Below, piece by piece: positions 2,094-27,553 of a stretch of DNA of 40,656 nucleotides. Origin of the DNA: a virus. Every line of letters begins with the position of its first letter. The first letter of the stretch is position 1. The translations under genes were made by a program, and so were the position numbers. Under the pieces are notes generated by a model. That model ran no database searches. It saw nothing but the letters and a program-made list of their open reading frames with translations, and had not been told where the DNA came from. The stretch is from positions 1 to 40,656 of the IMG/VR virus record IMGVR_UViG_3300044617_000810. One strand, given 5' to 3'.

Positions 2094-3074
2094 ATGGCAC
2101 AGCCCACCAACCTGTTCGACCGCTACGACGGTACGAAGGCAGTTCGTGAAGACCTCGCCAACATCATTTACAACATCAGCCCCGAAGACACGCCGTTCAT
2201 GTCGTCTGTTGGGCGCGAGAATGTTTCCAACACCTATTACGAATGGCAGACCGACGCTCTGGCGGCGGCCAGCACGTCGAATGCTGCGATCGAAGGCGAC
2301 GAGGCCACTCTCGACGCCCGCGCTGCTACCAACCGCGTCGGAAACTACACGCAGATCAGCCGCAAGGTGATCGGTGTGTCTGGCACGGTCGAAGCCGTCG
2401 ATAAGGCCGGCATGAAGTCATACCTAGCTTACGAAATGGCCAAGGCGTCTTCTGAGCTGAAGCGCGACATGGAGAGCATCCTGCTCTTCAACCAGGCGGC
2501 GGCTGTCGGCTCTGCTTCTGTTGCCCGCAAGACCGCCGGTCTGCCGGCGTGGCTTCGCACCAACGTCAGCAAGCACTCTGGCGGTAGCAACCCGACGATG
2601 TCGTCCACTGATGACGGCTATCCGAATGCGGCCCGCACCGATGGCACCCAGCGCGCCTTTACCGAGGCGATGCTGAAGACTGTCATTCAGAGCGTCTGGT
2701 CGCAGGGTGGTGACCCGAAGGTCGCGATGATGGGTCCGTTCAACAAGACGGCTGCATCGGCCTTCACCGGCATCGGTTCCAACCGTATCAACCAGGTGAA
2801 CGGTTCACCGAAGGCGTTCTCGATCGTAGCGTCTGCTGATGTCTATCTTTCCGATTTCGGGAAGGTCGCGTTTGTAGCAAATCGGTTCCAGCGCGAGCGT
2901 GATGTCTTCGTGCTTGATCCTGAGTATGCGTCGGTTGCCTATCTGCGCAACTTCAAGACTGACACCTTGAGCAAGACCGGCGACTCCGAGCGCCGCATGC
3001 TGACGGTGGAATATGGCCTGAAGGTGAAGGCCGAGAAGGCTCACGGCATCATCGCCGACCTGACCACGTCTTAA
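2094..3074 (+). CDS. Major capsid protein, SU10/DUF5309 type
   Basis: A 326-residue HK97-fold capsid subunit. The N-terminus (NLFDRYDGTKAVREDLANII, then SPEDTPFMSSVGR and YEWQTDALAAAS) is characteristic of the DUF5309 family that includes the phage SU10 capsid protein. The length is normal for that family. AAGGA lies nine bases before the ATG. A strong hairpin terminator follows at 3082-3107, so this gene probably closes a high-expression segment that includes scaffold. Recognition is by sequence pattern only. Confidence 0.92.
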   Translation: MAQPTNLFDRYDGTKAVREDLANIIYNISPEDTPFMSSVGRENVSNTYYEWQTDALAAASTSNAAIEGDEATLDARAATNRVGNYTQISRKVIGVSGTVEAVDKAGMKSYLAYEMAKASSELKRDMESILLFNQAAAVGSASVARKTAGLPAWLRTNVSKHSGGSNPTMSSTDDGYPNAARTDGTQRAFTEAMLKTVIQSVWSQGGDPKVAMMGPFNKTAASAFTGIGSNRINQVNGSPKAFSIVASADVYLSDFGKVAFVANRFQRERDVFVLDPEYASVAYLRNFKTDTLSKTGDSERRMLTVEYGLKVKAEKAHGIIADLTTS

Positions 3075-3081
3075 CGAAGTC

Positions 3082-3107
3082 GGGGCAGGAGGCGAACCTC
3101 CTGCCCC
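3082..3107 (+). terminator. Rho-independent-like hairpin after the capsid gene
   Basis: A perfect 11-base stem GGGGCAGGAGG / CCTCCTGCCCC closes on a CGAA tetraloop eight bases after the capsid stop. The U-rich tail is short (TCTCAT), so it may only reduce read-through, which would give more capsid than downstream products. Confidence 0.8.
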
Positions 3108-3147
3108 TCTCATAGCTGACCCGCCGTGATGGCGGCATGGCCCTTAG

Positions 3148-3462
3148 ATGGAGTTTCTTTTGAAGCTACCGTTTTCTTATGACCCGGTGCTCGGCATCAA
3201 GCGGACGTTCCATTGGGACGACACCACTGATGAGTTCCTGATCCAGACTGAACAGGAAACGACCGACATCGTGGAAGCCAACAAGGCTGCCTACAATGAT
3301 GCGCCAGATCGCTGGGGCGAGTGGACCCGTGTCGCATCAATACCGATCTCTCTGTACTTTGACCTCAAGAAAAAGGGCATTGCGGACGACGAAGAGGCAA
3401 TGAAGCGGTGGCTGAATGATGGCGACAATCGCTTCTTCCGCACCAGGCCGGGGAACGTGTGA
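3148..3462 (+). CDS. Hypothetical 104-aa protein downstream of capsid
   Basis: A soluble, slightly acidic protein beginning MEFLLKLPFSYDPVLGIKRT, with Trp-rich stretches (KRTFHWDDTTDEF, DRWGEWTR). No family is recognised, and no membrane segment or signal peptide is seen. The last base of its stop is the A of the next gene's ATG (TGATG at 3460-3464), so it is coupled to the glycosyltransferase. Position between capsid and head-tail adaptor suggests a minor structural or capsid-decorating role, which is only inference. Confidence 0.7.
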   Translation: MEFLLKLPFSYDPVLGIKRTFHWDDTTDEFLIQTEQETTDIVEANKAAYNDAPDRWGEWTRVASIPISLYFDLKKKGIADDEEAMKRWLNDGDNRFFRTRPGNV

Positions 3463-24857: not shown

Positions 24858-25427
24858 TCAGAAAGACCGTTTTGGTTTAACAAAAGCAATGGGATAGGCA
24901 CGTTCCACAACCGCGTCTGGAATGGCTGGGCCGTTAAGACTGAGCAAATTAAAGGTTCCTGGGCGTGATCCCAGCTGCAGGCGTTTGAGAAAACACCGCC
25001 CGTCTGATAGTTGCAGATAACAGATATTGCCAATGAGCGATTCAATGGCGTGGAGCGTCTTCTCAATATAAATGATTTCGCCATCATCATATTTTGGCGA
25101 CATTGAATCGCCTCTGACTATCAGCGCAATGCCATTTAGCATGCCAGGCGGGGCCGGAACTTGCTCGATGCCATCGCCTTTTGCGTGATCGTCAATGGCA
25201 AACACTTCTGCGCCAGCTCCAATAAACCCAACAACTGGCACCGTTGCCTGTGTGTTGTCAGATAAGTTAAGAAGCTTTAGCATTGGCGCAAGATACTTAG
25301 AGTTGCGGACGTCGCCACTTTCAATGCGCTGCACGTCGGCTTGTTTGCAGCCCACCATTTCAGCAAGCTGCGCTTGCGTTAAATCACGCGCCAACCGGAT
25401 TTCTTTTACTTTTTTACCGATACCCAT
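24858..25427 (-). CDS. Lysogeny repressor, HTH plus LexA/S24 peptidase domain
   Basis: A 189-residue CI-like regulator. Residues 1-55 form an XRE-type helix-turn-helix (LTQAQLAEMVGCKQADVQRI). VVGFIGAGAEVF (about 65-76) has the Ala-Gly self-cleavage site. GDSMSP gives Ser108 and CFLKRL gives Lys148 as the catalytic pair, so RecA-stimulated autocleavage on DNA damage is expected. ATG 25427 is chosen; an upstream in-frame start would add four residues. It faces the cro-like gene across a 139-base control region and has an operator-like site after its stop. Confidence 0.9.
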   Translation of the reverse strand: MGIGKKVKEIRLARDLTQAQLAEMVGCKQADVQRIESGDVRNSKYLAPMLKLLNLSDNTQATVPVVGFIGAGAEVFAIDDHAKGDGIEQVPAPPGMLNGIALIVRGDSMSPKYDDGEIIYIEKTLHAIESLIGNICYLQLSDGRCFLKRLQLGSRPGTFNLLSLNGPAIPDAVVERAYPIAFVKPKRSF

Positions 25428-25466
25428 ATTGGTCAGCACCCAAGAAACGCGCAGTCGTCAGAAACA

Positions 25467-25488
25467 TATAACACAACGCCGTGTGATA
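25467..25488. promoter_or_regulatory. Operator-like inverted repeat in the repressor leader
   Basis: ACAC-N6-GTGT (25471-25484), extended outward by TAT/ATA with one mismatch. It has the same ACAC-N6-GTGT core as 25541-25554. It lies between a possible repressor -10 (TATATT on the reverse strand, 25499-25504) and the repressor ATG, where bound repressor could limit its own expression. Confidence 0.5.
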
Positions 25489-25518
25489 GGCTGCGCTTAA
25501 TATAGGGATCGATGATAC

Positions 25519-25559
25519 GTTTAATCAGTATTGACGCAATACACGTGAATGTGTATTTT
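25519..25559 (+). promoter_or_regulatory. cro-side promoter with embedded perfect operator
   Basis: TTGACG (25531-25536), a 17-base spacer, and TATTTT (25554-25559). A perfect 7-base inverted repeat AATACAC-N6-GTGTATT (25538-25557) fills the spacer and overlaps the -10. GTTTAATCAGT (25519-25529), repeated near the left operator, lies just upstream. Transcription would begin at about 25566-25567, at the ATG of the next gene. Confidence 0.7.
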
Positions 25560-25566
25560 CGTGCGG

Positions 25567-25776
25567 ATGAAGCGAAGTTCTCTTTTACAAGTTGCAATTC
25601 AGCAATTCGGTAGCCAATCAGCTTTAGCCTCTGCAATCGGTTTCAGTCAGCACGCTGTCTGGCATGCGCTGCAGCGGGGAAGCGTATCACCGCGGATGGC
25701 AGTGGCGATCGAGAAGGCGACCAAGGGCGCCGTCACCAAGGTTCAGCTCTGCCCAGATGTGTTTGGTGACGCATGA
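25567..25776 (+). CDS. Cro-like regulator (YdaS/Cro helix-turn-helix)
   Basis: A 69-residue DNA-binding protein: FGSQSALASAIGFSQHAVWH is a helix-turn-helix of the YdaS/Cro type, then a second helix SPRMAVAIEKATKG. It faces the repressor and would act as its antagonist at the same operators. The ATG at 25567 has no Shine-Dalgarno. It coincides with the expected transcription start, so the mRNA may be leaderless. An earlier in-frame start (25549) lies inside the operator. It is coupled to the next gene by ATGA. Confidence 0.82.
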   Translation: MKRSSLLQVAIQQFGSQSALASAIGFSQHAVWHALQRGSVSPRMAVAIEKATKGAVTKVQLCPDVFGDA

Positions 25777-26075
25777 CGCTTGAAGAGCTGATGAAGGCCA
25801 AACTGGATGGCACCTTCACGAAATTCACATCGGAAGGTCGGGTGAAGACCATCGACGTCGAGGTCGAATACATTCCGAAAAAATGCCGTGGCTGGAAAAA
25901 TCAATACCGCGACAGATCCGAGCGCATCGCTTGGACGCAAGCAGATGACGACTTTCTGCTGACGCTGCGCGAGCAAAAGACCGCGATCAAGTACATCGCA
26001 TACAAGATGGATCGAACGCCCAGCAGCGTGAAGAACCGGCTGGAAATTCTGCGCCGTGCGGTGAGGGCGGCGTGA
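25773..26075 (+). CDS. Small HTH (Myb/SANT-like) hypothetical protein
   Basis: A 100-residue protein with a basic N-terminal half and a C-terminal helix bundle (IAWTQADDDFLLTLREQKT, YIAYKMDRTPSSVKNRLEIL) that resembles a Myb/SANT-type DNA-binding domain. It may regulate the rightward early operon or bind replication sites; neither is shown. It is joined by ATGA to cro and by GTGA to the methyltransferase. Confidence 0.7.
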   Translation: MTLEELMKAKLDGTFTKFTSEGRVKTIDVEVEYIPKKCRGWKNQYRDRSERIAWTQADDDFLLTLREQKTAIKYIAYKMDRTPSSVKNRLEILRRAVRAA

Positions 26076-27553
26076 AGTATTTGTCAGTCTGTTCCGGCAT
26101 TGAAGCCGCATCGGTTGCCTGGCACCCATTGGGGTGGAAGCCGCTGGCGTTTTCCGAAATTGAGCCGTTCCCACGCGCCGTGTTGGCTCATCACTATCCG
26201 CATGTGCCGTGCCACGGCGACTTCACCGTGTTGCGTGATCAGCCGTGGATAGTCGATGCCGATGTGCTGGTCGGCGGTACGCCATGTCAAGCATTCAGCG
26301 TAGCGGGTCTTCGTAAATCGCTCAACGATGATCGCGGCAATCTTTCATTGGAATTTGTGAGGCTCGCAGATGCAATTGATGCTTTTCGATCTGGTGCAGG
26401 ACGAGAACCGGGTGTCATCGTCTGGGAAAACGTCCCAGGCGTCCTCTCCGTCAAAGACAACGCATTCGGATGCTTCCTTGCTGCCTTGGCGGGAGACGTT
26501 ACATCCATTGATCCGCCGCGAGGCAAATGGAGTAACGCGGGTGTGGTTGATGGACCCCAAAGGAAAGTGGCCTGGCGCATCCTTGACGCCCAATATTTCG
26601 GACTGGCCCAACGACGCCGCCGTGTGTTCGTTGTCGCAAGTGCTCGAGCGGGGTTCGATCCCGCAGCGGTTCTTCTTGAGTTCGAAGGCGTGCGCCGGGA
26701 TACTCCGCCGCGCAGAGAAAAGGGGCAAGCAGCTTCCGGCGGCGCTACAAGCCGCACTGGAGAGCGTAGCCATTGGGACGGAGTAGAGCACCCGCACCCT
26801 ACACTGAACCAGAGTGCCAAGGCCAGCGGCGGCGTTGGCGCTTCCAATCAGGAACTATTCTCGCAGCGCGGGGCGTACTTGGTTCAAGAGCCCGTCATCA
26901 TGTCAAGCGGCCAAGCCAACGCAGAAATCAGGACGGACGGCGGCGCTCCGGTGCTGACTTGTCTTCATGAGGCACCAATTATAGCGGGTGCCTTACTCGC
27001 AGGTGGACACACTAACAATCCTCTTGATGAGACGCTCGTCACCCACTCCCTCCGCCCCGAAGGCTTCGACGCCAGCGAGGACGGCACGGGGCGCGGCACG
27101 CCGCTGGTGCCGGTGGCCTTCCACCCAACGCAAGACCCTATCAGCAGCACGGACGGCAGCACGCATGCGCTGGGATGCGGGTCGAAGGGCGGTCAGGCAA
27201 GTGTGGCGATCGCAGAACCATATACCATTGCCATTCGTGGCCGCGGCGATACGCACAATTTGGAGGCTCGGCAGGACGGCACAGCCAATGCGCTACTCAC
27301 TCCAAATGGGGGGCGCGGCGGAATTGGTGTCGGTGCGGTGGCTGCCGGCATGGCCGTGCGCCGTTTGACACCCACAGAGTGCGAGCGGCTGCAGGGCTTC
27401 CCTGACGGATACACGCTGATCCCGTGGAAGAAGAAGCCCGCCTCCGAGTGCCCTGACGGCCCACGCTACAAGGCGCTCGGCAACAGCATGGCCGTGCCGG
27501 TCATGCGCTGGATCGGCAAACGGATCAGCCAATATCTGAGGGGCGAGATATGA
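26072..27553 (+). CDS. C5 cytosine DNA methyltransferase
   Basis: A 493-residue enzyme methylating cytosine at C5. SAM-binding motif I (SVCSGIEAASVAW, 5-17) is followed by catalytic GGTPCQAFSVAG (Cys72), the ENV motif (119-121) and QRRRRVFVVAS (180-190). A variable target-recognition region spans about 200-430, then RLTPTECERLQGFPDGY and ALGNSMAVPVMRWIG. The start is GTG, overlapping the previous stop (GTGA). No cognate restriction enzyme is evident, so it is probably a protective or epigenetic solitary methyltransferase. Codons 100-238 also carry a second open frame (26370-26786). Confidence 0.93.
   Translation: MKYLSVCSGIEAASVAWHPLGWKPLAFSEIEPFPRAVLAHHYPHVPCHGDFTVLRDQPWIVDADVLVGGTPCQAFSVAGLRKSLNDDRGNLSLEFVRLADAIDAFRSGAGREPGVIVWENVPGVLSVKDNAFGCFLAALAGDVTSIDPPRGKWSNAGVVDGPQRKVAWRILDAQYFGLAQRRRRVFVVASARAGFDPAAVLLEFEGVRRDTPPRREKGQAASGGATSRTGERSHWDGVEHPHPTLNQSAKASGGVGASNQELFSQRGAYLVQEPVIMSSGQANAEIRTDGGAPVLTCLHEAPIIAGALLAGGHTNNPLDETLVTHSLRPEGFDASEDGTGRGTPLVPVAFHPTQDPISSTDGSTHALGCGSKGGQASVAIAEPYTIAIRGRGDTHNLEARQDGTANALLTPNGGRGGIGVGAVAAGMAVRRLTPTECERLQGFPDGYTLIPWKKKPASECPDGPRYKALGNSMAVPVMRWIGKRISQYLRGEI
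26370..26786 (+). CDS. Second open frame inside the methyltransferase gene (possible dual coding)
   Basis: A 138-codon frame one base out of register with the methyltransferase. It starts with ATG at 26370, preceded by GAGG seven bases upstream (26359-26362), a proper ribosome site inside another gene. The product begins MQLMLFDLVQDENRVSSSGK, contains WPNDAAVCSLSQVLERGSIP and LSSKACAGILRRAEKRGK, and has unbiased composition, unlike a usual shadow frame. I recall this C-terminal pattern in phage proteins linked to cytosine methyltransferases (no search done). It may be a real overprinted gene or a passive image of conserved methyltransferase codons. Confidence 0.5.
   Translation: MQLMLFDLVQDENRVSSSGKTSQASSPSKTTHSDASLLPWRETLHPLIRREANGVTRVWLMDPKGKWPGASLTPNISDWPNDAAVCSLSQVLERGSIPQRFFLSSKACAGILRRAEKRGKQLPAALQAALESVAIGTE

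Follow-up and report, generated by a model that had tools for sequence, protein, structure and literature searches.

A C5-cytosine methyltransferase gene in the viral record IMGVR_UViG_3300044617_000810, analyzed over its whole length of 40,656 nucleotides (the window), is near certain to contain a second, overlapping gene that is real and unannotated, which we term ORF2. We consider it likely that ORF2 has its own start and yields a small polypeptide working with the methyltransferase, as the beta chain of M.EcoHK31I does; on sequence resemblance and by analogy, we would regard this polypeptide as a methyltransferase subunit. The parts of the locus are as follows.

26072..27553, plus strand: C5-cytosine methyltransferase, large (alpha) polypeptide of 493 aa, with a GTG start and motifs I-VIII, IX, and X in the same frame
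26359..26362, plus strand: GAGG, the Shine-Dalgarno sequence of ORF2, within methyltransferase codons 96-97
26370..26786, plus strand: ORF2, 138 aa, in the +1 frame inside the methyltransferase; proposed small (beta-like) subunit
26370..26372, plus strand: ATG of ORF2, formed by residue 100 (Asp or Asn, GAT or AAT) and Ala101 (GCN)
26622..26738, plus strand: C-terminal element of ORF2, residues 85-123, VCSLSQVLERGSIPQRFFLSSKACAGILRRAEKRGKQLP
26660..26767, plus strand: methyltransferase codons 197-232, a weakly constrained spacer in the methyltransferase frame, with the ORF2 frame constrained

ORF2 lies where the initial annotation had placed it, with its ATG at 26370, 138 codons in the +1 frame relative to the methyltransferase, and GAGG seven bases before the ATG, and its product contains both of the peptides quoted there. 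The stop codon occupies 26784-26786, and the overlap covers methyltransferase codons 100-238. An in-frame TGA just 5' of the start (26358-26360) leaves little room for an earlier beginning of the frame. Matches to PF00145 (E=1e-35), TIGR00675 (above the cut-off), and phrog_116 (E=4e-88), together with motifs IV (PCQ), VI (ENV), VIII (QRRRR), IX, and X, identify the large protein as a C5-methyltransferase. The 493-aa chain includes motif IX (VRRLTPTECERLQGFP), which ORF2 lacks. ORF2 itself is Ser/Thr-rich in its N-terminal half, has no match in Pfam, NCBIfam, or PADLOC, and matches phrog_16143 weakly over residues 66-107 (E=0.0018). That PHROG family, with 139 positions and the label DNA methyltransferase, appears to be the second frame itself. 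Upstream of the methyltransferase, window positions 24858-25776 are a temperate-phage switch region, in which a CI-like repressor gene (24858-25439, minus strand) diverges from a Cro/YdaS-like gene (25549-25776, plus strand).

Selection on the second frame

We assembled 78 distinct methyltransferase homologues by searching with the methyltransferase sequence alone; as ORF2 was not used to fetch them, selection bias is avoided. Expected values were obtained by synonymous shuffling within each gene, which keeps every amino acid and the gene's own codon use. Over codons 101-231, the +1 frame has 0 stops in these homologues versus ≈180 expected and is open in all 78 versus ≈11 expected; the homologues share descent, and such expectations are not formal probabilities, a point addressed by thinning and by control regions. 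In the same stretch, the +2 frame has 335 stops, and in the control regions up- and downstream, +1 stops are as many as expected. Identity of the +1 translation to that of the window is 55% in the overlap, compared with 28% after shuffling, and 29-30% in the control regions, compared with 25-26%. The antisense frames over the stretch are also open in the window, as ORFs of 150 and 186 aa, but these are not preserved in the homologues, and their stops are not depleted as those of the +1 frame are.

Synonymous sites follow the same boundaries. Conservation of the identical codon is 2.04 times the expectation in codons 101-238, compared with 1.21 upstream and 1.16 downstream. When the set is thinned to 27 sequences that are <75% alike, the three consecutive thirds of the overlap give ratios of 1.5, 2.1, and 2.7, and the sequence beyond it gives about 1.1-1.2; the edges of the constraint fall at codons 96 and 235, and the excess ends with ORF2. 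Normally the third codon position varies more than the first, but in codons 191-230 of the methyltransferase this order is inverted. Each of the three outcomes that would have spoken against the overprinted gene of the initial annotation is contradicted: the homologues have no stops in the second frame, synonymous variation is strongly reduced over the ORF2 overlap alone, and the product has relatives. That an open frame might simply follow from conserved methyltransferase motifs and codon bias is scarcely credible on these data: the conserved motif VIII does partly fix the +1 residues, but shuffles that retain it predict ≈180 stops and 28% identity where 0 and 55% are observed, and no such effect appears in the flanking regions or in the KP15-type enzymes, in which +1 stops are not depleted. 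Shuffling, control regions, and thinned data together rule out an artifact of chance or codon bias. ORF2 has purifying selection in the second frame, a start and ribosome-binding site of its own, and no stops, as befits an overlapping gene.

An overlap-aware substitution count that treats both frames (dNN/dSN for the methyltransferase, Dcm, and dNN/dNS for ORF2) locates this selection within the overlap. Both frames are constrained in codons 141-185, with ratios of 0.25 for the methyltransferase and 0.36 for ORF2. In codons 197-232, the methyltransferase ratio rises to 1.16 whereas that of ORF2 is 0.32, and selection there therefore preserves the C-terminal part of ORF2 and not the methyltransferase. 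The reverse is found in codons 102-140, with 0.28 for the methyltransferase and 1.58 for ORF2, so that by this measure there is no purifying selection on the N-terminal 40 residues of ORF2. Over codons 141-232 as a whole, the ORF2 ratio is 0.32-0.47, compared with ≈0.9 outside. The earlier suggestion that both frames are selected consequently stands for about codons 141-196, gives way to the ORF2 frame only in codons 197-232, and yields to a dominant methyltransferase frame in codons 102-140. In an AlphaFold model of the large chain, pLDDT is about 46-60 from residue 201 on, low for the spacer and low for the recognition domain too; the ORF2 model has low confidence apart from C-terminal helices. 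A fold search with ORF2 gave no match at E<0.001, and solved structures searched by sequence and fold offered nothing usable for it.

The ORF2 start

The start codon and its upstream pairing are maintained by silent codon choice. Residue 100 is Asn AAT in 41 homologues, Asp GAT in 35, and Asp GAC in 2, giving xAT in 76 of 78, although Asp elsewhere is encoded by GAT in only 50% of cases; the following codon begins with G in 77 of 78, and the ORF2 ATG is kept in 76 of 78. Pairing with the anti-Shine-Dalgarno sequence upstream of this ATG exceeds that in synonymous shuffles in 70 of 76 homologues (p=1e-12), whereas 930 other ATGs in the +1 frame show no excess. The same holds in two other clades. 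In the Firmicutes clade, the ORF2 start is ATG in 70 of 71 sequences with a strong Shine-Dalgarno sequence in 69 of 70, and in the Streptococcus clade an ATG is found at codon 51 in 63 of 72, with a Shine-Dalgarno sequence stronger than shuffled in 62 of 63. A conserved ATG and a selected Shine-Dalgarno sequence across clades therefore indicate internal initiation and not frameshifting. Programmed ribosomal frameshifting into the +1 frame would have the merit of placing the +1 segment directly behind motif VIII, where other enzymes have it. It is nevertheless highly improbable given the start signals and the in-frame stop a few codons upstream; moreover, the +1 frame has a stop of its own, so that a single frameshift would yield an enzyme lacking motifs IX-X.

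The C-terminal element and two-chain methyltransferases

The C-terminal segment of ORF2 (LSQVLE..IPQRFFLSSKACAGILRRAEKRGK) resembles a segment that other enzymes carry in frame, 23-57 residues after motif VIII, as in Staphylococcus IME-SA4 (LVDILEKDVDESYYLSEEK), KP15 (VGDILEPDNDQYTISDRAWKG), and Bacteroides BT638P6 (LRDILQTGVPEKYYLSDK). An HMM built from the in-frame copies only and run against 53,974 six-frame segments finds ORF2s as its strong hits outside the methyltransferase frames (E to 6.5e-8), and profile-profile comparison of ORF2 with the in-frame element by hhalign gives E=4e-5 at 70% probability, a homology that rests on ≈25-35 residues. As far as sequence can tell, the C-terminal half of ORF2 resembles, in another frame, the segment by which other C5-methyltransferases connect motif VIII to the recognition domain.

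A closely comparable arrangement is present in Escherichia coli, where a related methyltransferase occurs in 106 of 5,426 genomes (chromosomes). In the two loci read as RefSeq records (L628 and L629), the alpha chain has 309 aa and a +1 ORF, beta, extends for 176 codons from its first Met (2793-3320); beta is unannotated in both records. An HMM of the ORF2 family matches this beta (E≈2e-14, 47 bits). Motif IX is in beta and absent from the 309-aa alpha, and at one of the two loci a NotI-family nuclease adjoins the methyltransferase. At a further genome locus, L627, motifs I-VIII and X are in the frame-0 chain, whereas the ORF2 segment and motif IX are in the +1 ORF; the matches of PF00145 and TIGR00675 to this beta are weak, begin just past motif VIII, extend to motif IX, and are collinear with C5-methyltransferases. 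The chains of M.EcoHK31I have 309 and 176 aa and are encoded by overlapping genes, and by agreement in these chain sizes, in motif layout, and in neighbor the E. coli locus is probably M.EcoHK31I. M.EcoHK31I alpha/beta is a two-polypeptide C5-methyltransferase (PMC3404938, PMC3439449), a natural one in which the larger polypeptide carries motifs I-VIII and X and the smaller carries motif IX (PMC3404938).

The window shares with M.EcoHK31I and the L628/L629 loci a large chain of the same type and a small ORF in its +1 frame that starts near codon 100-104 and has the same C-terminal element. Unlike the M.EcoHK31I type, however, in which motif IX is only in the small chain, the window has motif IX in the large chain, and ORF2 ends before any such motif; we therefore describe the window locus as a shorter variant of the M.EcoHK31I type and not as a member of it. 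The E. coli pair adjoins a restriction enzyme, whereas the window pair does not. Other two-chain C5-methyltransferases, M.AquI and the artificially split M.HhaI and M.SssI, are likewise divided near motif VIII and the recognition domain (PMC3404938), but their chains are collinear pieces, whereas ORF2 shares the DNA of the large chain in another frame. The ShiLan domain and other out-of-frame HNH endonucleases (PMC11855218) are further proteins concealed in a second frame of a phage methylase gene. They are homing HNH nucleases encoded in an insertion (PMC11855218); ORF2 overlaps conserved catalytic motifs, it has no Pfam HNH match, and the methyltransferase aligns through it with no insertion. 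In Mycobacterium phage Schatzie (L164, 878-2401), an HNH gene interrupts the methylase and ends just before the ORF2 match, an arrangement comparable with the ShiLan type (PMC11855218); the record states that the intron boundaries are undetermined.

In the model that we favor, ORF2 would be translated from its own ribosome-binding site and start codon, and the coupled translation of overlapping genes would balance the two chains. The large chain, with all catalytic motifs but a spacer where its relatives have the junction segment, would be bound by the ORF2 protein, which would supply that segment in trans between the catalytic and recognition domains, and the active enzyme would be alpha plus beta. 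For M.SssI fragments, complementation is strongest if the start of the C-terminal piece falls in the interval from motif VIII to the recognition domain (PMC3404938). Against a subunit role, the large chain has all motifs, IX included, and could therefore act alone. The retention of motifs I-X, and the mimicry by ORF2 of a segment found in frame in related enzymes, would also suit an ORF2 that regulates the methyltransferase around it, as a decoy junction segment either competing for a self-active large chain or assisting its folding. We regard this as improbable: motif IX belongs to the overlapping chain in E. coli and L627, and the large chain has an unconstrained spacer instead of the junction segment, which favors supply in trans.

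ORF2 might instead be a real overprinted gene with another function, such as anti-restriction or host takeover, that merely shares DNA with the methyltransferase. The evidence of selection would fit any protein function, and the Ser/Thr-rich N-terminal half and the lack of a Pfam or PADLOC match are in keeping with it, but the C-terminal half resembles a methyltransferase segment, the E. coli relative has motif IX, and we found no free-standing ORF2 homologue outside C5-methyltransferase genes in 621 loci or in the phage and plasmid sets. We consider this alternative unlikely. The overprinted gene of the initial annotation is in this respect a real second gene that is better read as a methyltransferase subunit than as an unrelated protein; its product does have relatives, but instead of independent homologues all those found are themselves overlapping.

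Should ORF2 prove to be a subunit, a methyltransferase that was cloned or mis-expressed in its absence would look inactive, codon optimization that destroys the second frame being one example of its loss, and M.EcoHK31I would belong to a far larger class. Methyltransferases taken for single proteins may often be two-part enzymes.

Distribution and proposed movement between frames

A tblastn search with ORF2 finds it in 148 phage records and in 533 plasmid records, mostly from E. coli. Its counterparts sit in hundreds of phage methyltransferases, including the dmt gene of phage P1, where it is unannotated; it is missing from the annotations that we inspected, and we found no description of the overlapping gene in the open-access literature. 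The overlap spans phages of Pseudomonadota, Firmicutes, Streptococcus, and actinobacteria. Tailed phages, to our knowledge, seldom keep long same-strand overlaps over great distances. The pattern recurs in two distant clades, one from Firmicutes and one from Streptococcus phages. Among 71 distinct sequences of the Firmicutes clade, fetched with a Terrisporobacter phage methyltransferase, there is one +1 stop versus 161 expected, the frame is open in 70, and the constraint profile matches over codons 106-240. The Streptococcus clade has the +1 pattern with an earlier start, and its ORF2s match PHROG 16143 strongly (E to 2.7e-36). ORF2 was undetected in the sampled Arthrobacter, Paenibacillus, and Mycobacterium Starcevich enzymes.

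In 507 of the 621 loci, the methyltransferase occupies a single complete frame and ORF2 lies in a different one. When the two states, in-frame and +1, are placed on a tree of the catalytic part, they interchange at least three or four times, changes that could stem from exchange of recognition domains. ORF2 offers a plain example of the movement of a protein segment between overlapping frames. We give about even credence to the broader proposal that many phage C5-methyltransferases, including P1 Dmt, are undetected two-chain enzymes whose junction peptide has moved repeatedly between the methyltransferase frame and a +1 gene. An apparent non-overlapping ORF2 in Bacteroides phage Dmt (L415) proved to be an ordinary methyltransferase with the element in frame.

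Staphylococcus phages (L410, 2151-2492, and L504-L516) have a 114-codon +1 ORF that covers methyltransferase codons 51-164 and ends at motif VIII, in methyltransferases that carry the junction segment in frame. This ORF is possibly an older form of the overlapping gene, a reading that is only suggestive because the members are closely related.

Three close relatives have a poly-G tract in the recognition domain, of 6, 15, and 7 G in L178 (4451-4490), L310 (4451-4490), and L543 (1951-1990), respectively; motifs IX-X fall in the ORF2 frame in L178 and L310 and in a third frame in L543. These are probably phase-variable methyltransferases. In L178 and L310, ORF2 reads on in frame into the recognition domain and motifs IX-X, but this fusion was set aside as key evidence because its frame depends on the length of the poly-G tract, which phase variation or a tract error would explain. 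In five other loci (L207, L246, L301, L168, and L414), a +1 shift splits the methyltransferase within the ORF2 overlap, apparently beside poly-C in some; the splits are either real or sequencing errors. In L246 and L301, the C-terminal half of the split methyltransferase reads from the ORF2 start codon. Homologous methyltransferases in L083 (about 1977-2858) and L109 (about 1983-2840) carry in-frame inteins at the catalytic cysteine of motif IV (GGTPC-FTAGH...VVHN-CQAFS).
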